From positions 28,942,853-29,006,852 of the forward strand of contig OX387183.1 in the NCBI GenBank assembly GCA_947561395.2: DNA of 64,000 nucleotides. The letters are read 5' to 3'. Positions 3,665 to 25,209 of this stretch are shown here, piece by piece. Both the position numbers and the translations under genes were made by a program. Every line of letters begins with the position of its first letter. The stretch's first letter is position 1. The notes below the pieces were generated by a model. The model saw only the letters and a program-made list of their open reading frames with translations, did no database searches and was not told the DNA's origin. The stretch comes from Buxus sempervirens. Taxonomy: Eukaryota; Streptophyta; Magnoliopsida; Buxales; Buxaceae.

Positions 3665-5464
3665 TGTGAGACATGGGAAAAAATAAATTTAATGACTTCC
3701 CTGATCATCACGCGGGATTCATTAAAAACAAAGAGTCGCCACCATTCAATCTAGGTGTGAATGGACACAAAAATATCAAATAAGCACAAAAGGCAAATTT
3801 AGGGTAAAAATAACCCTATTAAAAAAAAACAACCAGAGATGGGTAAGGGGATTAAGTTATGAATAGGGGAAGGTGTTAGGCACCCCTATTCATCCACACA
3901 AGGTGGTTGCCAGGTATTGTTCATGTCAAAATAAAGGAAAAAGCTTGCTATAAAAATCACAAAAAATCACAAAAAGACAAACATGTATGGTTTTTTCATA
4001 CAAATAGCCTGATTGATCCAGAACTTTCAAATATGATCATACCATTCCTAGGGTTTCATGATTAAAACAAGATTGAGATAAAATCAAATAAAACCAAAAT
4101 AAAGTGAAAACTTCAAAAATCTGGCTTCAAGTCAAATTCTAGAAATCTAGAAAAATATGATTTTTATGAAATATTTCAAAATTGAACTTGAATAGTCCAG
4201 AACATAGATAAAGCCCAAATTTCACTTTAAATAAAAACCAAAATACTCACATTAATGAAAAAACATCAAAATGGGAGAACTTAGACCGTAGGGTCTTATC
4301 TCAAAAGTGAAAAACGAATCAAAAACAACATCATGAAACCCTAGAATTTAATTTCAAGCTTCTAGATCCAGATCTATCATATTGATCATGATGAATCTAG
4401 GATCTTAGCCTAATATCCCAAAAATCACGAAAACAGCGCTGTAGGTGCAAAAGTGGTGAAAAATCCAAATTTTAGAAAAAGAGCGGATCTCATGCTATAA
4501 TCGCCATGAACTCATACGATTAATCCAGATATAAAATATAATCATGAAAACATGATCAGGATATCAAAAACAGCCATATCTCACAAATTAGAGCACATGG
4601 GGCCTATCCTATGGATCCACCTGTTCTCTTTTCCCCTAGCTTTCTCTTCACGTTTTACGACTAGAGAGACTCTTGAGGTACTTAGAGATAGGTTTGGGCA
4701 CACAAACACAATCACATGCCTTATTCTATAAAAAATAGAAAAAAACAGATTATAGGGTTCTATTCTAGGGATCCACCTGTTCCCCTTTCCCCTAGCTCTC
4801 TCTTCACGTTTTACGGCTAGAGAGACTCTTGAGGTACTTAGAGACAAGTTTAGGGATACAAAATAAAATAGATGGCCTTATTCTACAGCAATAGAGAAGA
4901 TTCTATTACTTCTAGAATTAAAAATATGAAATAAAAGGGGAAAGGGACTTACCTGGATTGAGCAAGCAGAGCAGCAGGGATTCCTTTCTTCTCTTGGAGC
5001 TCTTGTGTCTTCAAATTTTCATGGCCCTTTGCTTGAGAATCTCACCTCTATTTATAGGCAAGCACAGGGGCAAGGCTGGTCCAGAAGGATATATCCTGAT
5101 CCTCAGGATAGAGTCAAAAACAGAGATAATGCTCATCCATAGCCAACCAAGGTGGTTTCAGCGAATAAAAGACGTAATTCGCTCATTTAAAGGGATATTG
5201 GACTAAAGATAAATCTCAGAAATTGAGAGAAGAATAAAACTCGCACAAGTCTTTAGTGACCGTAAATCATTTATGGTCCAATGGTGCTCGTATTTCCAAT
5301 ACGGACGCGCCTGACTGTAGAGAGATTTCGGGTGCGACCAGCCCGTGAATGAAATACGGGCAAAGCCTACTTAGTCAATTTTTATGCATTTTTGACCCTT
5401 TTTAAGCTCTAATTACATGTTTTTATTACTTTCTCATTCTGTAGTGCAATTTGGGGTGTCTACA
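3665..5464 (-). repeat. G1 3' LTR (left copy)
   Basis: 1800 bp, TG at 3665 and CA at 5464 on the plus strand. It is nearly identical to 21722-23514; differences by eye are scattered substitutions and a few short indels. A minus-strand TATA box (CCTATAAATAG) lies at 5048-5058. The palindrome cluster at 5258-5361 is about 200 bp upstream of it. Confidence 0.93.
5258..5361. repeat. 28 bp-period palindrome cluster in the G1 3' LTR
   Basis: Four 21 bp units start at 5258, 5286, 5313 and 5341. The ideal unit is 9 bp arms around 3 bp, for example GACCGTAAA-TCA-TTTATGGTC; the core is GCCCGTA with TACGGGC. Linkers are about 7 bp. The third unit is degenerate. Confidence 0.85.
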
Positions 5465-5478
5465 ACTGCCCCCTTTTT
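5465..5478 (-). other. G1 polypurine tract
   Basis: On the minus strand AAAAAGGGGGCAGT directly precedes the 3' LTR start TGTAGACACC. This is where plus-strand DNA synthesis of a retroelement is primed. Confidence 0.85.
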
Positions 5479-5815
5479 GCTGGTAATTGGAACCAATTAC
5501 AAGCAGAGAGCAAAAGACCCACCGATTGCACTTTCTAAAATTTTTTTCTAATCAATTGCAATACGGGCAAGGATTAAATGGATGATTTTTATAAAAAGAA
5601 TTTATTTTTGGAAGATCTGCTAAAAATTCCCTCAGCTTAAGGGCCAAATCCTCCTCTCTCCTCTCACTGAGCACTCGTGGCTATGAAGTGAGATTTGAGT
5701 CAAAATTTTTAAACAAAAGTGAGTATGGTGGCAATCCTTGCAACTTACAACTAATATAGACATTGATCTTTTGAAAAATGTGGAGAAAATAACAAAATAT
5801 GCTATTTTTGGCTTC

Positions 5816-5918
5816 GCCCGTATTTGCATTACGGACAGGTTAGCCTGTATATTGATCACGGTTAAATGGGACCGTATTTCCTTCACGGTCACCTGCTGCC
5901 CGTACTGATTTGGATATT
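5816..5918. repeat. 28 bp-period palindrome cluster near the 3' end of G1
   Basis: Units start at 5816, 5843, 5870 and about 5898. The third (5870-5890) is well kept: GACCGTATT and CACGGTC arms. The others have several mismatches. It is the G1 counterpart of the G2 cluster at 46145-46208, on the upstream side of antisense gene B. Confidence 0.75.
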
Positions 5919-6140
5919 GAGTCTACAGGATATGTAGATACTTCAGGGTATGTTCCTCCTGATCATCCCATTGCTGGCATTGTGCCTTTATATATGTGGC
6001 ATGATATTCAGTCTATTTTGAGCAGGATGACCCGTAGCACAACCCGCAATATTGTGCAGCATGTCTTTGAGCACAGGCGATCTTCAAGCCGTAGTCGAGG
6101 CAGAGGACGAGGCCGTGGCCATAGGGGTGGACCTGCATAG
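5905..6140 (+). pseudogene. Antisense gene B, last-exon remnant in G1
   Basis: An open frame runs to TAG at 6138-6140 and encodes an acidic/hydrophobic stretch followed by an Arg/Ser/Gly tail (RGRGRGRGHRGGPA). The tail matches the last exon of gene B in G2 (GRGRRGGRGRGRGDDPA, stop at 41921-41923). The six upstream exons present in G2 are absent: this remnant follows the palindrome cluster almost directly, so an internal deletion is the simplest explanation. No start codon can be assigned. Confidence 0.6.
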
Positions 6141-6354
6141 ACAGTAGAGTAGGATTCCTTTATGTACATTTGTATTTGACAAAAGTGATGTAAACATTCA
6201 TATATATATAAAAGAAGTTTGATTTTCATTTATTTGTGTTCTTTTCTTCTTTCTTTTCAGCCTTTATTACATGATGAATGATAAAGCAGGGACAGGTGAA
6301 GCTTAGGGAAACAAAGAAATTAAAATTGCCCATTTTTTTGCATTTTTCGGAAGT

Positions 6355-6487
6355 AACCGTACTTAGACTACGAGCAAGCCGTGCCCGTAATATTAACACG
6401 GGCGCACTCTGCCCGTAAATGTTTCACGGTCACAGTGTGTCCGTATTCTTTATACGGGCGTGCTATGCCCGTATTCTAATTACGGAT
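6355..6487. repeat. 28 bp-period palindrome cluster upstream of G1 antisense gene A
   Basis: Five 21 bp units start at 6355, 6383, 6411, 6439 and 6467, exactly 28 bp apart. The best units are 6383-6403 (GCCCGTAAT / ACACGGGC) and 6439-6459 (GTCCGTATT / TATACGGGC). The last unit ends 23 bp before the gene A TATA box at 6511. Confidence 0.9.
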
Positions 6488-6510
6488 TTTACAGCTTTAA
6501 CGATTTTTTC

Positions 6511-6518
6511 TATATAAA
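6511..6518 (+). promoter_or_regulatory. TATA box of antisense gene A in G1
   Basis: TATATAAA lies 92-99 bp upstream of the gene A ATG (6610) and just downstream of five palindromes. G2 has a TATA box in the same place relative to gene A. Confidence 0.7.
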
Positions 6519-6609
6519 CTCATAGGGAACGTCATTGTGAAACTTTTAACAGTTTGAAAACTCCCTAAGCACGTCGTTGCTCGCTTTCCTTGGCTTCTTT
6601 GGCGCTTCC

Positions 6610-8347
6610 ATGGCTTCCCTTGCCCCGCTCTCTTCTGCCGTTGAATCTCCTCCTGCAAGACAACATGTTAGATCCAAATCTCTTAATCTCACCAGGTATA
6701 GCTTTGTAGATTCTTTCTATAATAGATGGGTTAACTCCATGACTCTTGCTGAAGAAAGTCGCTGGGATTCCATCCACTTAGGCCATATCCTACATATCCC
6801 TAAAATTCCCTTTAAGTGGGAAATCATCGAAGCTCTTATTGGGCATTGGGTTCCTGAACTAAATCTCTTCTGTTTTGATGATAAAGAGTTGACTCCTACT
6901 ATAGAAGAGATTGAAACCATCCTTGGCTTAAGATTTTCTGAAAAAGTTGTAAACCCACCCCTAAAGCCTAGCTACAAAAAGGAAGCTTCCACTTTCTTAG
7001 GTATAGGGAAGACAGGCCTAGGGGATTCTGACACACTTCTGACCTTGTCTATAACCTTTTTGACTGAAAAGCTTCTAAGGGGAGAGGATAAGGATGCCAG
7101 GTTCAATGCATTGACCCTGATAGTGGTTAATCAACTGTTTTTTCCACGGGTGACGACCAGGTTGACTTGGCTCTTATCTCGGTTATCTGCCAGGTTAGGG
7201 AAGGTGAGAGATTGGCAGAGATGTATCAAGCTCTAACTGACTACTATTTTAGGAAGAAGAAGCGCTTCCTTGCATGTGCCCCTATCCTACAGGTAAGAAA
7301 AATAACATAGAAAATTTTTTCTCTCTTTTTTCTCTTTTTTTTTTTTTCTTTTCTTCTCTTTTTTTTTTCTTTTTTTCTTTGTTTTTTCTTTCTTTCTTTT
7401 TTTCTCTTTCTTTTTTTTTTGAACTGAATCAAGATACATCCCTTTTTCTGCAGCTTTGGTTATTGGACCACTTGAGTCAGGTTGAAGAAATAACTCGCCG
7501 CTTCTTTCCACGATTGAAAGTTCCTGTTTTGATGAGCAACCAGGGCTGTCCTAACATCCATGGTGGTAAGCAAGGTTGGTTCACTTTCTTAGGTACTCTC
7601 CAGGATGATCAGGTGAGATGGCATGACACTTATCAGCCTAATTCAGAGACAGTGATCAACTTCAGAGATAGAAATTTTCTAGTCCTAGTAGGCTTGAAAT
7701 CTGCTGTACTTTATCTCCCTTTGAGAGTTCTTCGACAGTTTGGAGCAACACAGGGGATTACGATCCCATTTGGATATGAGGACTTCCTTGGACCACTTAC
7801 ACTAGCCACCATGGGGCTGAATGCTCGATTAATGAATGAGTGGTCTTATGTCCGTTTTCTGCGGGGCCCAGTCTTTTCTGAGTCTCATGTAAAGGATTAT
7901 CTCTTTTGGATCAAAGAGCAGGTGCAGAGTCATGCCCCAGTACCAGACGATCCTCCTGCAGTTCTTCCCCCTATCTATGAAGATATCTTGGAGTCTGAAA
8001 AAGCAACCCACAAACGGCTTCAAAAAATATGGGTATGAGAAGCCCAGGAACTCAGGATAAAGGGTATTGATATGGAGAGGCAACTTGAAGAGCAGACATC
8101 TCGCCGCATTGCCATGGAAAAGAAGCTTGAAGAACAAAGGCAGGCTCATTGCTTTGAAGTTCGCTCGATTCGCAGGAAATATCAGGATACTTTGACTGAC
8201 CTTAGGACTTTAAAGCTCAAGCTGTCACTTTCAGATGAGGTCATCTCCTTTCTGGGAAATCCAGGTGCACAAGGAGCTTCAGGAATCATTGCAACTCAGG
8301 CAGCTCGGATTCATGAGCGTAAGGAGCAGCTAAAGCATAGGGATTAG
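6610..8347 (+). pseudogene. Antisense gene A in G1: DUF7745-like protein, two exons
   Basis: Runs opposite to gag-pol. Exon 1 is 6610-7292, exon 2 is 7454-8347, joined in phase 0 (...PILQ then LWLLDHLSQ...). The sequence resembles the DUF7745 family of plant transposon-associated proteins: conserved stretches around FKWEIIEALIGHWVPELN, ELTPTIEEIETILGLR and LTLIVVNQLFFPR, then VLYLPLRVLRQFGATQG in exon 2. The last 90 residues (from 8072) are a charged coiled coil (MERQLEEQTSRRIAMEKKLE). It is broken by a one-base frameshift near 7150 and a TGA at 8036-8038. The G2 copy at 39700-41436 has the same layout and intron site. Family assignment is from memory of conserved motifs; the molecular function is unknown. 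Confidence 0.8.
7293..7453 (+). other. Intron of antisense gene A in G1
   Basis: 161 bp with donor CAG|GTAAGA and acceptor TTTCTGCAG. An almost pure T/C tract (about 7315-7420) fills most of it. Removing it joins the two exons in frame at the same site as in G2. The T-rich tract is on the gene A strand, which suits plant splicing. Confidence 0.85.
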
Positions 8348-9275
8348 ATTCTTTTATCATTCTTTTCTTTTTTTTTCATACCTTTATTCAAAAGTAAACT
8401 CCAATAGTGGAAAGACAAAGGTTTTAATACAAAAGTAGGTTTTCTATTATTGGCCTCAGAATTCTCAGATGCTTGTAAAAACCAAAGTTTTATGAAAAGT
8501 ACTTGATTTCTCATCACTGGCCAAAAGTATAGTTTTTTTTTTTTGAAACTAATCCAAAGCACTTAATCACATAAAATCAAAGGAATTAAAATCAAGTTGC
8601 ATAATGAAAAGGGTGGCCCAATCAATAGGGAGATACCAAATCTGTCTATCCTACGACCTTTAGAATCATCCCCTAATGGCTGTTCCTCCATGGCTAATCC
8701 TGCTAATCTGCTCACTTGCTTATGTTCATGCTGCCTTCACCTTGGACCACATGATCAACTCAATCTTTTAAAAAAAAATTTTTTTTTTACATGCCCCTAT
8801 TGCCCCTAGCGCCAATTGTGGTTTTCACTAGGGCTGGCTTCTGTATTCTGTCATCACCAATATTACTCTGATATTTGAATGAATATACTAAAATCACCGA
8901 GGGCTTAAGAATAGGACGAAACAAAGGCTAAGCTCGGTTTATGAAATAAAAAGGTATTAAAGGCTCAAAATTTTCTAAGTGTGAAAATAGGTCAACTGGA
9001 CTTACAGTCATGATGATTTTAATCCCATTTCCCTTTTTTCCTTGTATTTGGCTTTCATTTGCCATTATTTTTCTTTTCTTTATTTTTTCTCTTTTTGCCC
9101 CTATTGGCTTTGCCCCTTATTGGCTTTGCCCCAGTATAAAACTGTAAGTCCAGCTTAGGTTTATCAAATAAGACGAACAGGCTCAAATTGGCTAGACTAG
9201 TGATAAAGATTTTGGGAAATAAAGAAAGATGGCCTCAGATCATTTCCTAGTAATATTCATTCATGGAAAATATCT
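8348..9275. other. Non-coding spacer between convergent gene A and pol in G1
   Basis: No supported coding sequence. The 3' ends of gene A (plus) and pol (minus) face each other here. The stretch is T/A-rich and shares blocks with G2 38730-39690, for example GACTTACAGTCATGATG against the G2 complement. Confidence 0.7.
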
Positions 9276-10991
9276 CTATACTGCATCAGAGTTAATTGGC
9301 TCAGGAAAATCCTTCCCATCCATTTCTGTTAAGATGAGAGCACCTTCTGATAGGACCTTCTTGACAACATAAGGCCCTTCCCAATTTGGTTTGAATTTTC
9401 CACGTGGGTCTTCCAAAAAGGGTAAGATCTTCTTTAATACCAAATTTGCTTCTTGGAAAGTTCTAGGCTTTACCTTCTTATTGTAAGCCCTGGCCATTCT
9501 CTTTTGATACAATTGGCCATGAGAAAGCGCCTTCAAATGCTTTTCTTCTATTAAATTAAGTTGATCATGTCTTGACTGGATCCATTCAGCTTCTTCTAAT
9601 TCAGCTTCCATTAGCACTCTTAGTGAAGGTATTTCCACTTCCACTGGTAACACTGCTTCCATTCCATAGACTAGGGAATATGGGGTTGCCCCTGTAGAAG
9701 TCCGAATTAAGGTTCTGTAGGCATGTAGGGCAAGTGGCAACATTTCATGCCAATCTTTGAAACTCACTACCATCTTTTGAATGATCTTATTTATGTTCTT
9801 ATTTGCTGCTTCCACTACCCCATTCATCTTTGGTCTATAAGGAGCTGACTTATGATGGGTGATTTGAAACTGTTCACACATTTTCCTCATATCCTTGTTC
9901 TTAAGGTTTGAAGCATTGTCTGATATTATGGCACTTGGCAAACCATAGCGACAAATGATGTTGTGCTTTATAAACTTAAGAACGTGACTACTTGTGATGT
10001 TTGCATACGAGGCTGCTTCTACCCACTTGGTAAAATAATCGATTGCTACCAGTATAAATCTGTGTCCATTTGATGCCTTTGGAGAGATCATTCCAAGGAC
10101 GTCTATGCCCCACATAGAGAAGGGCCATGGAGATGTCATATTATGCAATGCACTTGGAGGTGCATTCTTATTATTAGCATATACTTGGCATAAATGACAC
10201 CTTTTGACATGCATATAGCAATCATGCTCCATGGTCAACCAGTAATATCCCAATCGTAGAATCTTCTTAGCAAGCATATGCCCGTTCATATGGGGTCCAC
10301 AAACTCCTCCATGTACTGTATCAATTAGCCTTTCTGATTCATTCTTGGCAACACATCTAAGTAGGATATCATTGTGTGATCTCTTGTACAACTGTCCACC
10401 ACTTAGTACGAACTGTCCTGCCAATCTCTGTATTGTTCTTTTCTCTGTAGAAGTAACATTTTCAGGCAAACTCCGATCATTTAGGAAATTCTTAATGTTT
10501 TGAAACCATGGTTCTTCTTCCTCTGGTGCCCTTTCTAGGACAAGGCAATAAGCAGGTTCATCCCTAACTTCAATTTCTAGTGGTTTAATATCAACACCTT
10601 CTGGCATACTAACCATTGAAGCCAATGTTGCTAAAGCATCGGCGAATTGGTTCTTGGCCCTTGGCATATAATTAAAAGAAATTAGAGTGAACTTGGTGCT
10701 TATTTCTTCCAAATACTGGTGATAGGGGATCAACTTGTGATCCTTAGTCTTCCATTCACCAGTTGTTTGGAAGATGATAAGACTCGAATCTCCATATACG
10801 TCAAGTTCCTCCACTTCATGATCTAAGGCTGCTTGTAACCCAATTATACATGCTTCATATTCTGCTATATTGTTTGTACATTGGAATCTCAATTTTACTG
10901 CGATTGGGATATGCGACCCATCTGGCTTGACCAAAACAGCCCCTATTCCATTTCCATTCATATTGGCGGCCCCATCAAGAACATTTGCCAT
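9276..10991 (-). pseudogene. G1 pol, second RNase H and integrase
   Basis: A 571-residue open frame. Residues 1-125 are the extra RNase H typical of Tat elements, with D6 (LDGAAN), E44/E46 (NNIAEYEA), D68 (VYGDSS) and D118 (NQFADAL). Residues 227-268 form the HHCC zinc region of integrase (H227, H234, C265, C268). The integrase core follows with D297 (GIDVLG), D358 (ISDNAS) and E394 (GVVEAANK); 35 residues separate the last two, as expected. The C-terminus (VLKKILPFLEDPRGKFKPNW) resembles the integrase C-terminal part. The frame is separated from the upstream RNase H by a frameshift near 10980. No start codon is implied; it is part of a polyprotein. Confidence 0.92.
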
Positions 10992-11830
10992 GAGCTTTCA
11001 TTTTCTTCTTCTTCTGTGAACAGTATTTCTTCATCAGGAAAATTGGTCTTCAAAGGTTGGTATTCTGGTAAAGGATGTGCAGCTAGGTGGTCAGCAATGG
11101 CTTGACCCTTAATGGCTTTCTGTGTGATATAGGTGAGGTCAAATTCAGATAGTAACAACTGCCACTTCGCTGTTTTGCCAGTTAAAGCTGGTTTTTCAAA
11201 CAAGTACTTCAACGGATCCATTCGGGATATCAATAAGGTGGAATGACTAAGGAAATAGTGTCTCAGTCTTTGGGTTGCCCATACTAAAGCACAACAAGTC
11301 TTTTCCAAAGGGGAATACTTTGCTTCATATTCTGTGAACTTCTTGCTTAGGTAGTAAATCGCCCTTTCCTTTCTGCCTGTCTCGTCGTGCTGTCCTAAAA
11401 CACATCCCATTGACATCTCCAAAACTGACAAGTATAGGATTAGTGGTCTTCCTGGGGTTGCTGGCACTAGCACAGGTGGGTTCAATAGATACTCCTTTAT
11501 TGTGTCAAAGGCTTCTTGGCAATTGTCATTCCAGACCGTCGGGTTATTCTTTCTTAGAAGTTTGAAAATTGGTTCACAGATAGCAGTGAGGTGTGCTATG
11601 AACCGGCTTATGTATTGAATCCTTCCAAGGAAACCCCGAACCTCCTTCTCCGTTCTAGGTGATGGCATTTCAATGATTGCTTTAGCTTTGGCTGGGTCAA
11701 TCTCAATTCCCTTTCTACTTACAATAAATCCCAACAATTTTCCTGATGTAGCCCCAAAGACACATTTTGCAGGGTTAAGCCTTAGACTGTATTTCCTAAG
11801 TATGTCAAATACCTTCTTCAAGTTGATCAA
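10958..11830 (-). pseudogene. G1 pol, end of RT and first RNase H
   Basis: It continues RT after an in-frame stop near 11846 (the region reads VYVDDMIDK, stop, CKEEDHLINLKKVF). It contains the RT thumb/connection (GFLGRIQYISRF) and the first RNase H (LGQHDETGRKERAIYYLSKK, YSPLEKTCCALVWA). The first catalytic Asp is not where most Gypsy elements have TDAS: here the stretch reads LYLSVLEMSMG. This fits the idea that the second RNase H does the work. Confidence 0.88.
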
Positions 11831-11848
11831 ATGGTCTTCTTCTTTACA

Positions 11849-12685
11849 TTATTTGTCTATCATATCATCCACATAGACCTCCATCTCCTTATGGATCATA
11901 TCATAGAATAAGGCTGTCATGGCCCGCTGGTAGGTTGCCCCTGCATTCTTAAGCCGAAATGGCATGACAGTGTAGTGGAAGGTACCCCAAGGTGTAATGA
12001 AGGCTGTCTTCTCTTGATCTTCCTTAGCCATCTTAATCTGATTGTACCTTGAGAAGCCGTCCATGAATGAGAACATGCTATGTACTGTAGTGTTGTCTAC
12101 TAATATGTCTATGTGTGAAAGTGGAAAATCATCATTTGGGCTTGCTTTATTCAAGTCTCTGTAGTCTACACACATTCGGACCTTTCCATCCTTCTTTGGC
12201 ACTGGTACTATATTTGCAAGCCATTCAGGGTATGTGGAGACCGCCAAAAATCCGGCTTGGAATTGCTTAACCACTTCATCTTTGACCTTCAATGTCCATT
12301 CAGGTTTCAACCTTCTTAGTTTCTGCTTAACTGGCTTAACATCTGGCAGAATTGGTAGCCTATGTACAACCATGTCCGTGTCTAATCCAGGCATATCTCG
12401 ATAGGACCATGCAAACACATCTTTGTAGTCAGCTAAGAACTGTATCATTTCATTCCGCTGTACCTCATATAGGAATACCCCAATTTTCACTATTTGTGGG
12501 TCCTCTTCGGTCCCTAGGTTTACAGATATGGTCTCTTCAATATTGGGTTTGACCCCTTTTTCATGACGCTCTAATTGATATGTGATTTCTTTTGGAGGGT
12601 CGTCTTCTTCGTCCTCGGTCTCTTCTTCAATCCCCATTAGGTCAAAGTCGAGCTCGAGGTCGAAGTCATACTCAACCCGATTCAA
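11849..12685 (-). pseudogene. G1 reverse transcriptase core
   Basis: A 278-residue frame. After an acidic linker (DFDLELDFDLMG) come RT motifs: KQKLRRLKPEW, VPVPKKDGKVRMCVDYRDLN, FSFMDGFSRYNQI, FITPWGTFHYTVMPF and the catalytic box YVDDMI near the end. One change is notable: MPFRLKNAGATYQ, where other copies have MPFGLKNAGA. It ends at a stop just after YVDDMIDK, where G2 reads on. Confidence 0.92.
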
Positions 12686-12689
12686 TTCC

Positions 12690-13303
12690 GTTTGCTTATA
12701 TGGTTCATAAATAGTTTGGACCTTTTTGAAAAATTTATCTTTTCTATAAAAAAAATGAAAAATCTTTTTGTGTTTTTTGAGAGCCTTCTAAAAAATCTTT
12801 TCCTGAAGACGAAGGCTCATTAAAACCTTCAGGAAAAGGGCCTTCCACTAATGGAGTTTTTTTTTGGAAGCCATGTCTGTTTGCCAAACAAACGCGGCTT
12901 CAAAAGTAAGAGGAGTTTCCTCCCAATTGTTCAGAATAAAAGAATCTGGGGCAGGGATATAAGCCTGCTTCTCAAGCTCAGGATCCGCATCAGAAATCAC
13001 CAGTACTGGGTGAGTTGCATCGCCTGCTTCTTCTATAGGGTTGGTCCCAGATGGAACCTATACTGCAGCCCAATCAATAAAAGGTAGCTCCTCTGCTCCT
13101 TCTTCTTTGTTGCCTTCAGTCATGGCAAAAAAGGCTCCAATGTCCTCAAAAAAGTCTTGCTCCTGCTCTGCCTGTGGTTCAGGCTCAACCACTGTTTGGG
13201 TAGGTGGAGGTGGAACATATGGTTGCAAGGTAGGGACATAAGGCTTTTGAAAAGGGTTGATATTATAGTATGGTGGTTTGGACTAATCCTGAGGAGGAGA
13301 CAG
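12690..13303 (-). pseudogene. G1 degraded linker between protease and RT
   Basis: Short open pieces match G2 34700-35330 in frame (for example FIDWAAV, NWEETPLTFEAAF, VQTIYEPY). Several stops interrupt it, including a run near 12740-12850. In intact relatives this is a variable spacer in the polyprotein. Confidence 0.7.
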
Positions 13304-13817
13304 CTAAATCACATGAGAAAGCTTTGGAAAAGTTTTCCTAATGTGAGGGAATTTCATGCCTTCCTCCTGCTTCTGTCCTTTCCAAACTCTTGTCCTGGCC
13401 CCCAATCTTGCTCTGTGGACCAGCTTCTTAGCCTTTACCGGTTCTATTCTTCCTTGCTGGTTAACCCCTAGACCTTTTCCAGGGTGGAAATTGTACTTTT
13501 CCATCATTTTCCTGACCATTTTCTCTGCACAGGTCAATTTTCCTTCTTTTTCCTGATACCCCCCAGGTATAAAATTGACAGTTTCAAATTGAAAAGAGTG
13601 AAATGTCAACTTGTCTGCAGTCATTTCCATGTTTATAAAGGGTACATCAGGGGACCATATGGGAAGAACCAAGCTCTCAGCTAGGATAGTAATCACCTTT
13701 TGCCCTCTTATATACTTAACTCTTTGGTGGAGGGTAGATGGTATAGCCCTAGCTGTATGAATCCACGGCCTTCCTAGGAGTAGGTTGAAGGCTGCAGGTA
13801 TGTCCATCACCTCAAAT
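13304..13817 (-). pseudogene. G1 protease, C-terminal half, and following linker
   Basis: It reads FEVMDIPAAFNLLLGRPWIH, the second half of a retropepsin-like fold (the LLGRPWIH motif). A G-patch-like stretch follows (KYNFHPGKGLGVNQQGRIEP). The N-terminal half with the active site is at 16553-17437. The two are separated only by the solo LTR 13823-16547; its GTGAT duplication lies inside the codons for NITFEV. Confidence 0.87.
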
Positions 13818-14943
13818 GTGATTGTGCGCACCCGATTTCGGTCGCACGACGAGGCGCACGCGTAACGACGCGTGCCTCGGGTTTTTTGTTTGGAGTCGCC
13901 ACTGCCTGATGGGGTGCAGGCAGACACCTGGGTGCCTAAGTTCTTCTACTGAGGCTTTTGGTCTGCGGCTTTGAGATTCTAAGTAGGGGCTCGGTTGCGG
14001 TCTGAAGAAGTCCGTAGACACCCCAGTCCACCCCGTCAAGTGACGGGTCCCATAAGTTTCCCTGGTTTGAGTCAACTCAGTTGGTCTCTCATTCACCCGA
14101 TTCCTATTCCAGCATGGTGTGGGTCCCTTTACTTGATTTTATCTTTTTAATTAGGATGATCTGGGTCTGGTGGGGTGGGCCCCATTGGAAGGCCCACGCT
14201 ATCCCTTGGTGGGCCAAGTGTGGCCCTTTGAGCTTTGGTTCAATTTGAATTGATTTTCTTTTGGAGTTCAAGTTGGATTAGTTAAGTGGATTTCATGCCA
14301 AAAGTGGGCCGGGATTGCTTTGTGGGCCCTTGAGTGGGCCCCACAATTGGCTGCTAAGTGATTTTGATTTTATCTTTCTTATCTGTGCCAAAATGGGCCA
14401 AGCATTGGGCTTGGGGCCCTTTACCTGGGCTTGGGCTTGAAAGCCCAAGGCTTCCTGAATTAGGGTTTGGAAACCCTAAGTTGGTCGGGTTCATGGGCTT
14501 AGTGGGCCAGATAGGCCCTACCCGTGGTCTCGGCCAAACTACATCCTACTTTAATCATGCATGGCCCAATTAGGGCTTGGGTGGGCCTCAAGTGGTCTGG
14601 CCCACTCAAATCTTTTATTATCTTAGTTAAGCAAAATGAATTGGTCGGGCTCGGTGGGCCCCGTTGGAAGGCCCACTGGAAACCAAGTTGGACCAAGGGT
14701 CCAAGTCCCATGTTGGGTTTCCGGGTGACCCGGAAACCCTATTGGTTTATCTGGTTCGGAAATGGCATTCACATTTAGCAATAATCATAGAAAAAACACA
14801 AGATGGACACTTTGTCAGAAAAGAAACTGGCTCATTGGGATTTTTCAAAAATATATCAATTTGGCATGTTTTAGGGGTAGGCGCCGACCTCAGGCACTAG
14901 GCGCAAGGTCGGCGCGGGCTCGGCGGATCAAAAACCTGTGGAG

Positions 14944-15145
14944 CATGAAAAGCGCTCGCGCGAGGTTCACACGAAGTCTTCGCGCGAGCTTCGCGCGAGC
15001 CTCGCGCGAGCTTCGCGAGAGCCTCGCGCGAGCTTCACGCGAAGTCTTCACGCGAGCTTCACGCGAGCTTCGCGCGAGCCTCGCGCGAGCTTCGCGCGAG
15101 CCTCGCGCGAGCTTCGCGCGAGCCTCGCACGAACTCGGCGGACAC
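14944..15145. repeat. CpG-rich 10 bp tandem repeat in the solo LTR
   Basis: About 20 units of the decamer (C/T)TCGCGCGAG and variants, alternating GCTTCGCGCGAG and GCCTCGCGCGAG so that the higher period is 20 bp. It is by far the most CpG-dense stretch in the window and is open in several frames on both strands (Arg/Ala/Ser-rich), which is an artefact of the repeat. Confidence 0.9.
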
Positions 15146-15874
15146 TCGATGCTCTCGGTTTTTTTTTTTTCAAACTCCATTTCCGACTGGTTTTAAGCTC
15201 TGTAACTGGTTTCTGGGGATCCTTAGAACCCCAGCAGACCTCCAAACACAGTTGGAAATTAATCTAACCTAACATGTCCTCACCACTCATCACTCAAATC
15301 CCTCTGGAAACTTACAAATCCAAAACAAAATATTAGCAGAACATGAATAAAACTTCGAAAACAAAATACTAACTAACAAAACATGATTAAGGAAGAAGGG
15401 AAAGGGGGGTTTTATCGGGATACAAGAGAGGTGCGATCACAGGGAACATGCTCCCCTTCGAATTTGAATCAAACAAGCGATGACAAACAAGATATCAGAG
15501 ATGCATGGGAAGCCTGATTTATATATATATTGAACAAAAGAAAATGGAGAGCTCACCTTGGTTCCAGGTCTTTGTAGAGTAGGCCGGAGGGTCCCTTGGA
15601 GCCAACGAGCTGCAGCCGGCGCCTCCTTCTCACTCCAAGAACAAGATTACCTTCGGGTTTGACGAGGAAGAAGAGGAAGGGAGGAAACGAGTGTGTATGG
15701 TCTTTTCTTCAAATTACCGAACCCAGAAAAATGTCCAACCGAAACTCTCCCACCAAAATTTCCCAACCACGAAATCAGCCAACCCCCAAAAAGATGCCGA
15801 ACCCCAAAAAAAAATCCCCCAACCCCCACAGTTGAAGACTCTCGCGGCTTATATAGGCAAGGGAAATGTGGTGC

Positions 15875-15938
15875 CGCTCACCTTGGCGCCCAGCTCAAGG
15901 TGAGCGCATGCCGCTCGCCACGTTTGCGCGAGCGGCAT
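15875..15938. repeat. Two palindromes upstream of the solo-LTR TATA box
   Basis: Palindrome 1 has perfect 10 bp arms CGCTCACCTT (15875-15884) and AAGGTGAGCG (15897-15906). Palindrome 2 has perfect 10 bp arms ATGCCGCTCG (15908-15917) and CGAGCGGCAT (15929-15938). Starts are 33 bp apart. The pair begins 17 bp upstream of the minus-strand TATA at 15849-15858, the same kind of placement as the G1 and G2 clusters but with another core. Confidence 0.85.
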
Positions 15939-16552
15939 AATTATTACAAAACAATAAATGCCGCCGCTCGTTTGTCTTAAAAATATGAAAATTAGGATAT
16001 GGTCCCTGGGATATTTAGGTTTAATATTATTTTATTCAGATATTTTCAGATACTATCAGATTGGTCCCTGGGATATTTTGAATGTTTGGATATTTACGGA
16101 TTTGATCCTTGAGATATTTTCCTACGCAACTCGCCACGTGTGCAGCTTTTTGCCACGTGCGCAGATTGCCGGTTTTGCTGTTCGAGAATTTCGTCAGCTC
16201 ATATTTTCTTCACCCGGGCTCCGATCTGGGCAAACTCAGTGGCGTTAGAATCGTATCGGAGCCCTCTATCCCATGACCTAGAGGTAAGCACCTGGATTGG
16301 GTTTTAGCAGAAAGTCAACTTTTGGCTCCGCGCAAGTTTGACCGCCCGCAGAACCTTCATCTGGACCCCGATTCCTGCAAACTCAGTTGCGTTGGAACCG
16401 TGTCGAGATTCTCTATCCAATGATATAAAGCAAGGTGGCCAAATATCACTTGATCAAAAAGTCAAATTTTTGTCCCCTTGGGGTTTGACTTTCTGCTAGG
16501 GTTTTCATTTTCAGCAATTCCAGGGGTGCAAAAATAAGGTGCTTACAGTGAT

Positions 16553-17437
16553 GTTAAAAATATACGGTCCAATTGTAACCGGTAGTTCAACCTCCCCTAG
16601 GGAGTGTGTTTTAGAGCTATTAAAGGCTCTTATGATTCTTCCATTCTGTTTGATTTTATTTTGCTCCAGACCGAGCTTAACAAAGGTTATCAATGGACAG
16701 ACATTCAGAGCCGACCCATTATCAATCAAGACCCGAGCTATCATGCAACCCTTACTGAGCATGGCTATGTGCAAAGGATCAACATGATAGTACCCTGATG
16801 GGCTGATTTTAGTCTCAGAAAAGGTTATAACATTGTGCGATAATATCTGCCCAACCATCCGGCCTAGTTGGTCTGGTTCAATATTTTTAGGCACATGGGC
16901 CCCCTGAAGTACCTTCAACAAAGATTCCCTATGTTTTTCAGAATTCAACAATAAACCCAGTATTGAGATCTGGGCAGGGACCTTGTTCAACTGCTCAACA
17001 ACATTAAACTCACTCTTTTTTATGATCTTAATAAGTTCAGCAGCCTCACTATCAACTACCTGAGGGGCATCTTCCCCTATCTTGGCCTTTCCTTTATTTT
17101 TCTCTTCTTCCTTCTTTTCTTTTCCCACTTCTTTCTGTTTTTCTTCCTCCCCCATACCTTTTCCTGACCTTGTCATGAGGTTCACTTCTTTCTTGCCTTC
17201 AGCTGCAGGGAATGTAGTGGTAAATGTTTCACTGTAGTTCCATGGTACAGCCGATTCAAAATAAGCAGGCTTAGGGACGTTTACCACTAATGGGGGAAGT
17301 TTGGACTTGGCTGTGGAAATCTGAGAACGGGGAACATTAACAACCAATGGTGGAAGTTGTTTTGGTTGAGGGGTTGCAGAAGTGACGGATGCACTAAGAG
17401 GGTCACAGTTTATGACCAATGGTGGTTTGGACTGCAA
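16553..17437 (-). pseudogene. G1 protease, N-terminal half, with upstream linker
   Basis: An open frame of about 295 residues up to the insertion. A Lys/Glu-rich stretch (EEKQKEVGKEKKEEEKNKG) separates Pro-rich repeats with PPLVVNVP from the protease. The retropepsin active site reads VLIDNGSALNVCP, with DNG in place of DTG/DSG. The frame ends at PYIFNI, where the solo LTR is inserted, and resumes at 13817. Confidence 0.87.
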
Positions 17438-17439
17438 TT

Positions 17440-18063
17440 GATGACCAAAGGTGGTTTTGTAATGTTCATTTAGGCCATGAGAGATGAGACCCGGTCCAAA
17501 GAAGAGCTAATGTTCTTTGCAGCACTATCATTCCCCTTTGAAATTACATTTACTTCTTTGTCCTCATTTCTTCTGTCAAAATACACTTTGACCGTTGTCC
17601 CTATAGGAGCAATTAATTGAGATGGGTCAAAAGTTATTTTGTCAGAGGAGATGACCCCTATGACATTAGAGGGGCCTGCCCCATGATGCTGGGGCAGCGG
17701 GTTTTGTCCAATATCAGTTCTTGGAGGATTGGGAGCCCCTGTATTGAAATACAGGGTATTCTGGTCTAATAAATCCTGAATAGCATGTTTCAGAGGCCAA
17801 CACTTGTCAATAGGGTGCCCAGGTGCACCCATATGGAAATCACAAGTGGTGGAGGGGTCATAATTTCACCCCTTAGATGCATTCGGATTGGGCTCTCTTA
17901 AGGTGATGTACCCTGTCTGCAGTAAAGTGGGCAACAACTGAGAAGGAGTCATGGGAATAGGGGTAAAAACCCTATTTCTCCTTGCTGCGAAGTAGGCATC
18001 CTTTTCCTCTTTAGTAAAAACCCTTTTTTGGTCTGAGGGTGCTGCTGGAACATTAACCCTCAT
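17440..18063 (-). pseudogene. G1 gag C-terminal region
   Basis: Two adjacent open pieces (18063-17866 and 17832-17470) separated by a stop. The first contains FTKEEKDAYFAARRNRVFTP; the second contains the Tat-type motif HMGAPGHPIDKCWPLKHAIQ, a His/Cys cluster in the position of a nucleocapsid knuckle. G2 has the same order in a single frame (32525-33718). Confidence 0.85.
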
Positions 18064-18167
18064 GGGGCCTGGGTAGATGGAACAGATGGAGTAGGAAAAT
18101 GAGCAGGTATATTGATTTGTATGGGCTTGTTAGGACCAGATGGTGGCTGTACCATGTTCACCTCTCC

Positions 18168-19187
18168 TTATTTCTTGTTCCCATTCTTCTTAATCCCGCT
18201 TCCTTTTTTCAAATTAGGGTCCTGCTGACTAACCATGGCAGAGTGGTCAATTATCTTACCTGACCTAATCCCATCTTCAATGCGGTCAGCCACTTGGACT
18301 AAGGAAGCAAAATTCGTGGTGGTCTGACCCACCAAATGGCTGTAGAATGGTTGATCCAAGGTACTGATGAATGTAGAAATCATCTCCTGTTCTAGCATAG
18401 GTGGCCTAACTTGAGAGGCAGTCTCCCTCCATCTCTTGGCATACTGCCTTACAGTCTCATCCCTTCCTTTGCTCATTCTCATTACGTCGTACTTGTTTGG
18501 CACGATTTCTGAATTGAACCGGTATTGAGCCAGAAAGGCATCTGCTAGGTCTTTCCATCTTCTAATCTTTCCATGGTCCAAAGTGGTGAACCACCTTAAA
18601 GCGGTTCCAGTCAGGCTCCTTTGGAAGAGCTGAATCAGAACACCTTCATCTCGACCAAATTGGCATAAAGCACCACAGTACAACTTTAGATGGCTCATGG
18701 GGTAGCCCGTGCCATCATACTTGTCTAGGTCTGGGCATTTGAACTTAGCCGGCAGGTTAACATTGGGGTATAGGCATAAGTCCTCAAAATTGGTGCCCCC
18801 AAAGTTGCTTACCCCTTTAACTTCTCTAAGTTCATCTTGGATCATTTCTAGTTTATGCAGGAACTTCCTTTCAACTTCTTCCCTTATTTTTTCCTTTTCC
18901 TTAGCTTTATCTGACTCAACTGTCTCATCCTTAATCTGTATAGGTTCGGGTGTGGGTTCATAGACGGGTTCAGAAATTGGTTGAACTGGAGGTGGAATAT
19001 TGATTTGGGGTGTAGGTGCAGGGTTGGATGTGGATGCTTGATTTTGGTCCTGCACTTATTGGGCCTGCAGTTGTTGGGCCTGCACGGACAGTATGTTTTC
19101 TAACATTCGGGTTAGTCCTGCTACTTACTCTTGGAGCAGGGCAACATCTGGATGAGGAGCATCAGCTTCATTCTCAATGGGATTCAT
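18168..19187 (-). pseudogene. G1 gag
   Basis: The homologous start to G2 gag is ATG at 19187 (MNPIENEADAP), followed by stops near 19130 and 19060. From 19055 a 295-residue frame holds an acidic N-terminal helix (KAKEKEKIREEVERKFLHKL) and the Retrotrans_gag core (FKCPDLDKYDGTGYPMSHLK, LFQRSLTGTALRWFTTLD, YAKRWRETASQVRPPM). Gag packages the genomic RNA. Confidence 0.9.
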
Positions 19188-19394
19188 GGCGCGATCTCTT
19201 GATCTGGTTACAGGAGCTATGATTGCAAGTGTACTTGGTACCTGGCAAAAATAAACAGAATATATTAATGCCCATTTAATCTCCTTCACCTACCTAGGAA
19301 TGCCTATGGGCTAGCTGGGTGAACACGAGTTTGGATTTGTTTTTTATTTGCTTTTCTTTTTTTTTTTTTTTTAGAATTGTTAGAATATTCTAGG

Positions 19395-20215
19395 GCTTCC
19401 AACAGGTCCCATAAGAGAAAAAGATCTAAAATTCAAAGGCTTTCAGAGACCCAGGAGTATTTTTGGAAAAAGTCTGAAATTCAAAGGCTTTCAGAGGCCT
19501 AGGAGTATTTTTGGAAAAAGTCTGAAATTCAAAGGCTTTCAGAGGCCCAGGAGTATTTTTAGAAAAAATCTGAAATTCAAAGGCTTTCAGAGGCCCAAAA
19601 GGTTAAAATCTAAAATTCAAAGGCTTTCAGAGGCCCAGGGTTGTTTTGCAAAAGGCCTGAAATTCAAAGGCTTTCAGAGGCCCAAGGATATTTTTGAGAA
19701 AGATCTGAAATTCAAAGGCTTTCAGAGGCCCAAAGGTTAAAGTCTGAAATTCAAAGGCTTTCAGAGGCCCAAAAGGTTAAAGTCTAAAATTCAAAGGCTT
19801 TCAGAGGCCCAACAGGTTAAATTCTGAAATTCAAAGGCTTTCAGAGGCCCAAAGGTTAAAGTCTGAAATTCAAAGGCTTTCAGAGGCCCAAAAGGTTAAA
19901 ATCTAAAATTCAAAGGCTTTCAGAGGCCCAAGGATTTTTGGAAAAAGTCTAAAATTCAAAGGCTTTTAGAGGCCCACAAGGTTCAAATCTGAAATTCAAA
20001 GGCTTTCAGAGGCCCAAGGATTTTTTTGGAAAAAGTCTGAAATTCAAAGGCTTTCAGAGGCCCAGGGATGTTTTGGAAAAAGTCTGAAATTCAAAGGCTT
20101 TCAGAGGCCTAGGATATTTTTGAAAAAGATCTGAAATTCAAAGGCTTTCAGAGGCCTAGGATATTTTTGAAAAAGATCTGAAATTCAAAGGCTTTCAGAG
20201 GCCCAAAGATTATTT
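19395..20215 (-). repeat. G1 leader tandem hairpin array
   Basis: About 18 units of 38-50 bp. On the element sense strand each unit has the arm CTGAAA, the loop GCCTTTGAA and the arm TTTCAG, preceded by GGGCC. One unit near 19943-19975 has CTAAAA paired with TTTTAG, a compensated change. Several have CTGAAA opposite TTTTAG, which would be a G-U pair in RNA. It lies between the 5' LTR and gag. Confidence 0.88.
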
Positions 20216-20334
20216 ATTTATTTACACCTTTTTTTTGAAGCATTTTATTCAAACTCATCTCCCTTTCATCATTTAAAGGTTAAAGGAACCGGATTTAGTT
20301 GAGAAAAACTGATTATGATTGAATTCTCCGCAGA

Positions 20335-20467
20335 GACCATATACACAGTACAGTCCGGCTGTGCCCGTATTTAAATTACGAGCAAGCCGGGACCGTATGG
20401 TTAATACGGGCGCGTCTAGACCGTATAGTTACTACGGGCGAGCCCAGCCCGTATGTAAACTACGGTT
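20335..20467. repeat. 28 bp-period palindrome cluster in the G1 leader
   Basis: Five 21 bp units start at 20335, 20363, 20391, 20419 and 20447, exactly 28 bp apart. Good examples are 20391-20411 (GACCGTATG / AATACGGGC) and 20419-20439 (GACCGTATA / ACTACGGGC). Confidence 0.9.
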
Positions 20468-20469
20468 TT

Positions 20470-21702
20470 ACGGAGCTGCTTTATGTTTCTTCAGTTTTTT
20501 CATGGTTTGATCACTTTGATTGCTCATCCAAACATACGGTTCACCCATGCTAGGCCTCTAAGCTATTCCAAAGTGGACCTTGACATATTTGCAAAAATAC
20601 ATGCTTAGGAGGGCACATGTTCCCTCCAAATAGACACCATACTCATACTTTGGTATCCTTTTGTTGCCTCTTGTACAAACATTGGGTAGGATTGATTCTA
20701 AACAGAGTTAGAGACTCTTCCAATGGGCTACACCATGTCTAAGAACTATGCATATTTGGGGCCAATTTTGTCCCCAAACCAATGGGCACCACGACACCCC
20801 TATAACATGAAAACAATGCAAAAATTAAGGTTACCTTGTTACCTTGTTTACCTTCAATATGGCATCCACATTATGCCCTGGTTTGTAAGCCATGCAAACG
20901 GCCTTCCCTCAATTACAAACCCATATTCCCATGTAATTGTGTACTTTAGCCAAAAACGTGTATCTCCACCTTCAAGAGTAGGGGTTTTGGGTTTTGGCTT
21001 AATGACAACTTAGAACTCAAGCCTAGTGATGACCAGAATCCCAGATCCACATTATCATCACATCATTGGCCCAAAGTTCTAAGGTGAATGTTTTTACTTT
21101 CGCTTTCCGAAGTAACGACCTCAGTGCGCCAAGCTACACACATTCGGGTTCAACTTCCTATAGGTTATAGGTAGGTTGTGTAAAAAAATAAAATGTGCAC
21201 AGTGCATTGTAAAAATAGGGTGCGTTCACAACGTCCCAACCCTTACCACTCTTTTCGCAGCCATGCATAAACAAACCAAGGCATATAGGGAGCATATTAA
21301 AGCAAGTAAACGTAAGTAAACAAGCAACCTTATAGCACCTAAACATGCTCACAAAAATCATCCAAATCATGCCAACATGTGCTCATATTATATATCCAAA
21401 ATACATCATAGAAAACATGCTGGAAATTAAAACATGCATATTAAAATACAGCAAGGAATAAGCATGGTTTATCAAAGTAAGCCTCCCCTACGCATGTTTC
21501 TAGAAACAATCCTATAAATCAAAATTAAGCATGTTTCTTCCCCCATGAACTCTTAAGCAATAAATCAAATTTAAAACATAACCCACATGCTTAAGAACAC
21601 AAAACAGCAAGCAAAACAAAGACATGCTAAAAACACCAAATAGCAAGCAAATCCAAAACATAAAAAACATGAACAAACACCAAAAGGCTCAAATCCACAA
21701 CT
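20470..21702 (-). other. G1 5' leader, non-coding
   Basis: No credible coding sequence. The block 20890-21275 is similar to the complement of G2 28010-28400, including TTTCGCTTTCCGAAGTAACG near 21100. The rest is A-rich and poorly conserved. As the leader of the genomic RNA it should include packaging signals; which part is unknown. Confidence 0.75.
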
Positions 21703-21719
21703 CCCCATTGGAGTCGCCA
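21703..21719 (-). other. G1 primer binding site
   Basis: On the minus strand TGGCGACTCCAATGGGG begins two bases after the 5' LTR end. The TGGCGACTC type is common in Tat/Ogre-like elements and is usually ascribed to a tRNA-Arg primer. Confidence 0.8.
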
Positions 21720-21721
21720 GT

Positions 21722-23514
21722 TGTGAGACATGGGGAAAATCAATTGAATGACTTCCCTGATCATCATGCGGGATTCATTAAAAACAAAGAGTCGCCACCA
21801 TTCAATCTAGGTGTGAATGGACACCAAAATATCAAATAAGCACAAAAGGCAAATTTAGGGTAAAAATAACCCTATTAAAAAAAACCAGAGATGGGTAAGG
21901 GGATTAAGTTATGAACAGGGGAAGGTGTTAGGCACCCCTATTCATCCACATAAGGTGGTTGCCAGGTATTGTTCATGTCAAAATAAAGGAAAAAGCTTGC
22001 TATAAAAATCACAAAAAATCACAAAAAGACAAACATGTATGGTTTTTTCATACGAATAGCCTGATTGATCTAGAACTTTCAAATATGATCATACCATTCC
22101 TAGGGTTTCATGATTAAAACAAGATTGAGATAAAATCAAATAAAACCAAAACAAAGTGAAAACTTCAAAAATCTGGCTTCAAGTCAAATTCTAGAAATCT
22201 AGAAAAATATGATTTTTATGAAATATTTCAAAATTGAACTTGAATAGTCCAGAACATAGATAAAGCCCAAATTTCACTTTAAATAAAAACCAAAATACTC
22301 ACATTAATGAAAAAACATCAAAAGGGGAGAACTTAGACCGTAGGGTCTTATCTCAAAAGTGAAAAACGAATCAAAAACAACATCATGAAACCCTAGAATT
22401 TACTTTCAGGCTTCTAGATCCAGATCTATCATATTGATCATGATGAATCTAGGATCTTAGCCTAATATCCCAAAAATCACGAAAACAGTGCTGTAGGTGC
22501 AAAAGTGGTGAAAAATCCAAATTTTAGAAAAAGAGCGGATCTCATGCTATAATCACCATGAACTCATAAGATTAATCCAGATATAAAATATAATCATGAA
22601 AACATGATCAGGATATCAAAAACAGCCATATCTCACAAATTAGAGCACATGGGGCTTATCCTACGGATCCACCTGTTCTCTTTTCCCCTAGCTCTCTCTT
22701 CACGTTTTACGGCTAGAGAGACTCTTAAGGTACTTAGAGATAGGTTTGGGTACACAAACACAATCACAGGCCTTATTCTATAAAAAATAGAAAAAAGCAG
22801 ATTATGGGGTTCTATTCTAGGGATCCACCTGTTCCCCTTTCCCCTAGCTCTCTCTTCACGTTTTACGGCTAGAGAGACTCTTGAGGTACTTAGAGACAAG
22901 TTTAGGGATACAAAATAAAATAGATGGCCTTATTCTACAGCAATAGAGAAGATTCTATTACTTCTAGAATTAAAAATATGAAATAAAAGGGGAAAGGGAC
23001 TTACCTGGATTGAGCAAGCAGAGCAGCAGGGATTCCTTTCTTCTTTTGGAGCTCTTGAGTCTTCAAATTTTCGTGGCCCTTTGCTTGAGAATCTCACCTC
23101 TATTTATTGGCAAGCACAGGGGCAAGGCTGGTCCAGAAGGATATATCCTGATCCTCAGGATAGAGTCAAAAACAGAGATAATGCCCATCCATAGCCAACC
23201 AAGGTGGCTTCAGCGAATAAAAGATGTAATTCACTCATTTAAAGGGATATTGGACTAAAGATAAAGCTCGGAAATCGAGAGAAGAATATAATCGCATGAG
23301 TCTTTAGTGACCGTAAATCATTTACGGTCCAATGGTGCCCGTATTTCCAATACGGGTGCGCCTGACCGTAGAGAGATTTCGGGCGCGACCGGCCCGTGAA
23401 TGAAATACGGGTAAAGCCTGCTTAGTTAATTTTTATGCATTTTGACCCTTTTTAAGCTCTAATTACATGTTTTTATTAATTTCTCATTTTGTAGTTCAAT
23501 TTGGGGTGTCTACA
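21722..23514 (-). repeat. G1 5' LTR (right copy)
   Basis: 1793 bp, matching 3665-5464. It includes a palindrome cluster at 23309-23412 (units at 23309, 23337, 23364 and 23392). The TATA region at 23099-23109 reads CCAATAAATAG on the minus strand, one change from the other LTR. Confidence 0.93.
23309..23412. repeat. 28 bp-period palindrome cluster in the G1 5' LTR
   Basis: Four 21 bp units. The first (GACCGTAAA-TCA-TTTACGGTC) is a perfect 9-3-9 palindrome; the second has arms GCCCGTATT and AATACGGGT. The arms are better preserved than in the left LTR. Confidence 0.88.
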
Positions 23515-24823: not shown

Positions 24824-24913
24824 TGTAGACACCCCAAATTTCACAAACAATCATAAAAAATCATCATCTCCTTGAAAGCCAGCACAAAATTTGGAGAAAA
24901 TGAAATTTTACCT

Positions 24914-25055
24914 GTATCCGGCAACTCAGGCCGGATACAAGTACATTCCTTCATATCCGGTCTCAAGTGCCGGATACAAGGTGCCTTTAGTGTATCCGGT
25001 ATCATATACCGGATACATTAAATCCCTAGTGTATCCGGCCTGAGATGCTGGATAC
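24914..25055. repeat. 39 bp-period palindrome cluster in the G2 5' LTR
   Basis: Four 25 bp units start at 24914, 24953, 24992 and 25031, exactly 39 bp apart with 14 bp linkers. Unit 1 has arms GTATCCGGC and GCCGGATAC around 7 bp; unit 3 has GTATCCGGT and ACCGGATAC, a compensated change. Units 2 and 4 have one or two mismatches. Confidence 0.93.
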
Positions 25056-25209
25056 ATTAGTTTTGCTCAAAATTAGGGTTTTCTGAGAGAAATCACTCTT
25101 TACCATCATGTCCCTCATTAAATGAGGGGAAATCTCGGAAAAAGCCCTAGGGTTAAGGTTGGGGGGTTCTAGACATTAAGTTGTGTCTACCAACAACCCT
25201 AGCCTTTGC

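Follow-up and report, generated by a model that had tools for sequence, protein, structure and literature searches.

Arrays of inverted CCG-N11-CGG half-sites in Tat/Ogre-like retrotransposons of Buxus sempervirens: discrete classes and a putative element-encoded reader

The window analysed here is a stretch of 64,000 nt from Buxus sempervirens (genome 676 Mb; assembly GCA_947561395.2, contig OX387183.1, positions 28,942,853-29,006,852 of the forward strand). It holds two related Ty3 retrotransposons, G1 and G2, both hosted by a Copia element whose long terminal repeat (LTR) pieces lie at 1318-1615 and 49966-50263. G1 has LTRs, a 5-bp target site duplication (TSD) and the Pfam domains Retrotrans_gag, RVT_1, RT_RNaseH, RVT_3 and rve, i.e. 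gag, reverse transcriptase (RT), two RNase H domains and integrase, as is typical of a Tat/Ogre-type Ty3 LTR retrotransposon. The label Ogre-like, which we take from structure and primer site, does not settle between Ogre and another Tat lineage. Pol segments of G1 and G2 are 82-88% alike. Both elements carry clusters of short palindromic units in the U3 of both LTRs, in the leader, in the promoter of an antisense gene (gene A) and on the side of a second gene (gene B), as listed here.

3665-23514, reverse strand: G1, Tat/Ogre-like Ty3 element; LTRs 3665-5464 and 21722-23514, about 97.1% identical; TSD AATAA
5258-5361, reverse strand: G1 U3 cluster of the 3' LTR; 4 units, steps 28, 27, 28
5816-5918, reverse strand: G1 B-side cluster, adjoining the polypurine tract; 3 units by scan, steps 28, 27
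6355-6487, forward strand: G1 gene A promoter cluster; 5 units, all steps 28 bp; TATA box 25 bp downstream
20335-20467, reverse strand: G1 leader cluster; 4 clear units at 28 bp and one decayed
23309-23412, reverse strand: G1 U3 cluster of the 5' LTR; 4 units
24824-49089, forward strand: G2, related to G1; LTRs about 97.5% identical; TSD AGACC; TATCCGG-N9-CCGGATA clusters
24911-25057, forward strand: G2 U3 cluster of the 5' LTR; 4 units, period 39
28635-28776, forward strand: G2 leader cluster; 4 units, period 39
41566-41707, reverse strand: G2 gene A promoter cluster; 4 units, period 39; 16 bp from TATAAA
46147-46209, forward strand: G2 B-side cluster; only 2 units, 39 bp apart
46880-47024, forward strand: G2 U3 cluster of the 3' LTR; 4 units, period 39

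The five G1 clusters had been proposed at these places by a sequence-only reading of the window, and all five were confirmed. Allowing up to two mismatches, G1 contains 21 near-matches to CCGTA-N7-TACGG; 40 first-order Markov shuffles gave 1.8 on average and never more than 5. G2 contains 18 of its own units, where shuffles gave 0.4 on average and at most 3. The conserved G1 unit consists of two half-sites, GMCCGTA-N7-TACGGKC, so that its arms are about 7 bp and not the 9 bp first described, and the inner bases show little or no pairing above independence. The earlier reading also held that position was conserved while sequence and spacing had switched. Position is indeed kept and the flanking letters do differ (GMCCGTA in G1, TATCCGG in G2), but the geometry CCG-N11-CGG is common to both elements. 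Within the window, CCG-N11-CGG occurs 28 times, whereas every other spacer from 0 to 30 occurs 0 to 14 times, and 27 of the 28 sites fall within the ten G1 and G2 clusters, which cover 1.5 kb of the 64 kb. The same geometry holds across the genome, where exact TATCCGG-N9-CCGGATA was found 28,399 times (5 for a backwards-pattern control), and with one extra base (N10) only 14 times (control 2).

The exact 28-bp period claimed for G1 holds in its gene A promoter cluster and fails in U3 (28, 27, 28) and on the B side (28, 27). The 20 fetched copies of the G1 family all have a gene A promoter cluster of five units; its steps are 28, 28, 28, 28 in 19 of them and 28, 28, 28, 27 in the other. Most copies have four-unit U3 and B-side clusters with steps of 28, 27, 28 (single exception 27, 27, 28). 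In the fetched stretches, L010 and L019 have neither a U3 nor a B-side cluster, L022 has one four-unit cluster and L016 has just two units at one of these places. A step of 27 also lies within the gene A cluster of some CCGTA elements (L033, L039, L041, L043 and L044). We also considered the period as a class trait, with 28 and 39 bp about one helical turn apart; this was set aside because elements of the AACCGYA class, described below, use steps of 28, 41, 39, 38 and 23 bp despite an invariant CCG-N11-CGG.

The placement of the clusters is repeated in other copies. Judged from the coordinates of the first 100 sites listed, five G2-type copies on one contig (C1) repeat the layout of U3, leader, gene A promoter and U3 at G2-like distances; three of the five also have an exact B-side site, and hence all five places, and two are without an exact B-side site. 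In 35 of 43 loci a TATA or TATA-like motif follows the gene A array at a distance typical of the class, the last unit lying 24-25 bp upstream of it in CCGTA and CCGCA elements, 16 bp in the TATCC classes and 17-18 bp in AACCGYA elements, where the motif is TATA-like only. The other eight loci have another distance or no match, some of them due to a missed decayed last unit or a spurious unit.

To sample gene A loci, 118 scored matches to PF24924 (DUF7745) among 5,751 candidates were used, from which 24 promoters were fetched, together with 13 relatives of one of them. Operator-like clusters were present at 20 of the 24 promoters. The remaining four (L029-L032) belong to other DUF7745 genes, with a single open frame of about 446-498 amino acids and no upstream cluster, and were excluded from the class and tree rows. 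With class labels assigned by hand from the printed units, the clusters form five half-site classes, all with CCG-N11-CGG: GMCCGTA, GNCCGCA, AACCGYA, TATCCGG and TATCCGA. GNCCGCA stands for a single element (L045) at a single place. Exact genome sites were counted for the other four and number 8,452 for TATCCGA (control 2), 11,266 for GCCCGTA (control 0) and 3,706 for AACCGCA (control 2), beside the TATCCGG count given above. In the TATCCG frame the classes are discrete, because T and C at position +3 are nearly absent (TATCCGT 4 sites, control 2; TATCCGC 2 sites, control 0). Units with one G half and one A half make up 4,387 of 41,238 in the TATCC frame, where independent halves would give 15,795, a deficit to which family structure contributes.

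Within an element, the same core can recur at several places. Each of G1 and G2 shows a single core at all five of its places, and in four of the five classes the same core was seen in U3 and in the gene A promoter. For example, the U3 of the L079 element has four CCGA/TCGG units spaced 39 bp apart, of which three have TAT flanks, matching its gene A promoter, and the L049 element has AACCGYA units in U3 and on the B side, as in its own gene A promoter. No cluster was found in the stretches of L093 and L095, two of four that were fetched at guessed distances. Class-specific motif arrays in the non-coding regions of a transposable element family are thus found here, as in the VANC-type systems discussed below. 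Mixed half-sites do occur, in L050, L073, L075-L077, L084 and L085: L050, which is basal in the CCGTA clade, combines CCGTA and CCGCA, and several TATCCGA elements retain a CCGG half. Judged from these units, class switches may pass through mixed units, with L050 and the CCGCA of L045 as a possible intermediate. Separately, two G1-family loci contain 39-bp arrays in which both unit ends are changed together (L010, 1687-1781, and L022, 5261-6685; GATCCGG..CCGGATC and TAGCCGG..CCGGCTA), and these units are possible extra half-site variants beyond the five classes.

The classes were then compared with the descent of gene A and of RT. The tree of gene A exon 1 has 43 rows (12 of the 20 fetched G1-family copies were left out), and in it every class with several rows forms one side of a branch, with support of 94/94 for TATCCGA and the others starred; the five classes require four changes, which is the minimum. 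RT was fetched at 33 loci and gave a usable match at 18. Without L046, which is broken, 17 loci remained, and these together with G1 and G2 gave 19 rows. For these 19 elements the classes need three changes on the RT tree and three on the gene A tree. RT does not resolve TATCCGA into a clade: L079 grouped with TATCCGG at 95/90 (two TATCCGA rows), and holding TATCCGA together on the RT tree (five rows) was not rejected by the approximately unbiased (AU) test, p = 0.32. The sequence-only reading had proposed, as a test in support of a reader-site pair, that the core change with gene A or gene B but not with RT. The classes do fit the gene A tree, but RT separates them equally well, and apart from the hint of discordance at AU p = 0.32 the two trees give no separation. 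Thus, because both trees fit equally, the classes follow element descent. Compared with RT, gene A has longer stems between classes; the tips are mostly decayed copies and synonymous divergence (dS) is often saturated, and for this reason we make no claim of faster gene A change at class switches. The sampled loci showed no core that varies freely among nearly identical gene A proteins, apart from partial exceptions in L050, L073, L075-L077, L084 and L085.

The candidate readers are the genes A and B, which lie in the two elements as follows.

6577-8038, forward strand: gene A of G1, DUF7745/PMD-like, antisense to gag-pol; open reading frames (ORFs) 6577-7236 and 7274-8038
5919-6140, forward strand: remnant of the 3' end of gene B of G1 (RG-rich tail); about 4 kb lost in the window copy
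39777-41529, reverse strand: gene A of G2; ORFs 41529-40801 and 40412-39777; long predicted helix in the second ORF
41920-44586, reverse strand: gene B of G2; split frame, weak PMD match at 43605-43994, RG-rich tail

In both elements gene A is antisense and lies between pol and the 3' LTR, and the match of its first ORF to DUF7745 passes the Pfam cut-off (E = 5e-9 in G1, 7.6e-12 in G2), while that to PMD falls below it. In position, orientation and PMD-related domain, gene A is like the antisense extra ORFs of Tat elements. Gene B of G2 matches PMD with E = 0.003, below the cut-off. In most fetched relatives of G1 the gap between the B-side and A-side clusters is about 4.5 kb and holds gene B, as against 0.4 kb in the window copy. 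Purifying selection acts on gene A exon 1, with a ratio of nonsynonymous to synonymous divergence (dN/dS) of about 0.05-0.12 at an often saturated dS. Between the G1 family and G2, amino acid identity by segment is 65-78% in gene A and 35-63% in gene B, which therefore diverges more. The second ORF of gene A has a predicted helix of 93 residues, with a predicted local distance difference test (pLDDT) score of at least 90 over about residues 141-190 (two-row alignment), and such a long helix would suit dimerisation. In G1 this ORF terminates at 8036-8038, earlier than its G2 counterpart. The window copy of G1 is probably drivable only in trans, because its gene A is truncated within the stretch that corresponds to the long helix of G2 and its gene B is mostly deleted.

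On balance, we favour the reading that the clusters are operator arrays for a dimeric regulator, most likely encoded by the elements and acting in trans on its own family. From the arrays, their geometry and positions, the classes and the agreement of the classes with gene A clades, we infer binding by a protein, the identity of this reader and the direction of its effect. The unit would be an inverted pair of half-sites, CCG-N11-CGG, placed in U3, in the leader, in the gene A promoter beside the TATA box and on the gene B side. A putative dimeric sequence-specific regulator would bind these arrays and act in trans to control transcription units within its own family. The reader would most likely be one of two PMD/DUF7745-like products, that of gene A, whose tail is predicted as a long helix, or that of gene B, which diverges faster, and the effect would most likely be activation or anti-silencing, in the manner of the VANC proteins of VANDAL elements. 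The families would have split into discrete specificity classes through altered letters flanking CCG across the arrays of an element. The earlier proposal that site and element-encoded reader diverge together is supported in part: the classes are discrete, are present at several places per element and follow gene A clades, and the protein reader itself is a candidate. A wider version, which we put forward tentatively, is a family-private code in which a dimeric PMD-family protein from the antisense genes reads CCG-N11-CGG operators at the promoters of its family, the flanks set specificity, and joint switches of protein and array class give rise to new families; PMD/DUF7745 would then be a new family of sequence-specific DNA-binding proteins and the retroelement counterpart of VANC.

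Several results weigh against the reading as operators for an element-encoded dimer. RT and gene A fit the classes equally well, gene A exon 1 is well conserved between classes, and a single class could be read by a host factor. Gene A exon 1 has no sequence match in the PDB and its structure model is of low confidence, and the exon 2 model has no significant fold match. In addition, the genome site counts are of related copies and not of independent events, and mixed units exist (the 4,387 of 41,238 in the TATCC frame, and others in L050 and some TATCCGA elements). Some columns outside the half-sites also pair above independence: in CCGTA units, of 84, column -4 (43 vs 29.9 expected), +4 (67 vs 58.7), +5 (37 vs 30.5) and +6 (47 vs 38.0), and in TATCCGA units +4 (31 of 51 vs 25.4). 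A protein homologue search scored nothing in the database searched.

The strongest rival, which we regard as unlikely though still worth serious weight, is that host transcription factors use the arrays as enhancers and that the classes are adaptations to differing host factors. Placement at TATA boxes and in U3 would suit any activator, inverted half-sites are also typical of host dimers, and there is a CpG in every half-site. However, five classes that share one exact geometry, with letters changed at several places per element, are not predicted by unrelated host factors. To our knowledge, there is no host factor with CCG-N11-CGG spacing.

It is also conceivable, with a rather low probability, that an element-encoded reader is an autorepressor, i.e. 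a latency switch, and not an activator or anti-silencer. The arrays adjoin the TATA box of gene A itself, as in negative autoregulation, whereas in the available parts of PMC5735166 and PMC10398659 the described reader of arrays encoded by a transposable element, VANC, removes silencing.

An even smaller chance is left for units that act as RNA or cruciform hairpins in packaging, dimerisation or insulation. The units are palindromic, the same leaders hold hairpin arrays elsewhere, and some CCGTA and TATCCGA columns pair above independence, as given above. For the pairing counts, units were chosen by CCG/CGG with at most one mismatch, so that conservation of those six letters is circular there, and the genome counts are independent of this choice. 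The inner bases of the G1 units are A/T-rich and show little or no pairing above independence. Most columns outside the half-sites pair at or below it (AACCGYA +6: 0 of 40 vs 14.8 expected), while the half-site letters are conserved. A hairpin role is unlikely because the unit centres mostly pair no more than chance. The leaders also contain other arrays with RNA-hairpin-like units, at 29954-31247 in G2 (28 units) and 19417-20205 in G1 (18 units), with compensatory stems (in G2 CTATA/TATAG, CTAAA/TTTAG and TTGAA/TTCAA) and a constant loop, AGCCTCTGAAT in G2 and AGCCTTTGAAT in G1. These arrays behave in the opposite way to the operator units, and therefore the contrast is internal to the same elements; judged from their stems and loops, they are a possible multimeric packaging or Gag-binding signal.

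Functionless tandem repeats, homogenised by slippage and gene conversion, are hardly credible as an explanation: tandem arrays of unknown function are frequent in plant Tat elements, according to the available parts of PMC11963269, but strict N11 geometry and the same placement in unlike classes speak against it. Whole-unit duplication fails to explain the clusters, because spacers and unit centres vary between units and the half-sites stay constant.

A few other features of the window and its relatives were noted. A leader stretch of 75 bp (21071-21145 in G1, 28152-28226 in G2) is 91% alike between the elements, above the pol segments, which suggests a conserved leader signal. G1 has a solo-LTR-like insertion at 13823-16547, between pol and gag, with, as we read it, the flanking repeat GTGAT and an 11-bp palindromic tandem, TCGCGCGAGC, at 14956-15132; stretches related to this insertion adjoin the 39-bp arrays of L010 and L022. 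Scanning IMG/VR with the RT of G2 gave no match.

For comparison, fungal Zn2Cys6 sites are CGG triplets with fixed spacing. The G1 and G2 units resemble them in the constant triplet pair and fixed spacing, and differ from them in that the flanks, not the spacing, vary between classes; Pfam scans of the given ORFs reported no Zn2Cys6-type domain. VANDALs are DNA transposons. The non-coding regions of their families are densely set with short class-specific motifs, which differ between related families and change together, and the VANDAL-encoded protein VANC reads the motif arrays and removes silencing (PMC5735166 and PMC10398659, as far as their available text goes). With class-specific motif arrays in their own non-coding regions, the G1 and G2 types have in this Arabidopsis system their closest working model. 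The VANDAL motifs in that text (YAGTATTAY; AGTTGTCC, AGTTGTAC) have one orientation, whereas in G1 and G2 the units are inverted pairs whose geometry is fixed. By Pfam, the candidate reader of G1 and G2 is PMD/DUF7745-like.

For Tat elements, the accessible passages of PMC11963269 describe antisense genes between pol and the 3' LTR, with tandem arrays nearby and a proposed regulatory DNA-binding role, and PMD is known in plant Gypsy elements (PMC9289625, likewise in part). The domain of the Retand antisense ORFs is TRP28 in that account, whereas gene A of G1 and G2 is DUF7745/PMD. In the parts consulted, neither paper names a conserved palindromic operator, class switching, or joint arrays in U3, leader and antisense promoter, and no description of palindromic operators in Tat elements was recognised in the literature as represented by titles, the beginnings of abstracts and some passages. 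The Arabidopsis PMD proteins MAIN and MAIL1 are tied to transcription, to silencing of transposable elements and to the DOWN promoter motif, with direct DNA binding unproven (PMC7156037, in the portion available). They are host genes, whereas genes A and B belong to the elements; the likeness is by PMD family.

If the reading of the arrays as operators for an element-encoded protein is true, it would explain what the antisense PMD-type genes retained by plant Ty3 elements do, and VANC-like co-divergence of site and reader would have arisen in LTR retrotransposons too. The genome of B. sempervirens would then hold five specificity classes suited to direct tests of protein-DNA recognition and of its switching. 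Even without such a protein, this one genome has a large stock of sites with regulatory potential, as the exact copies of four operator patterns add up to about 50,000.

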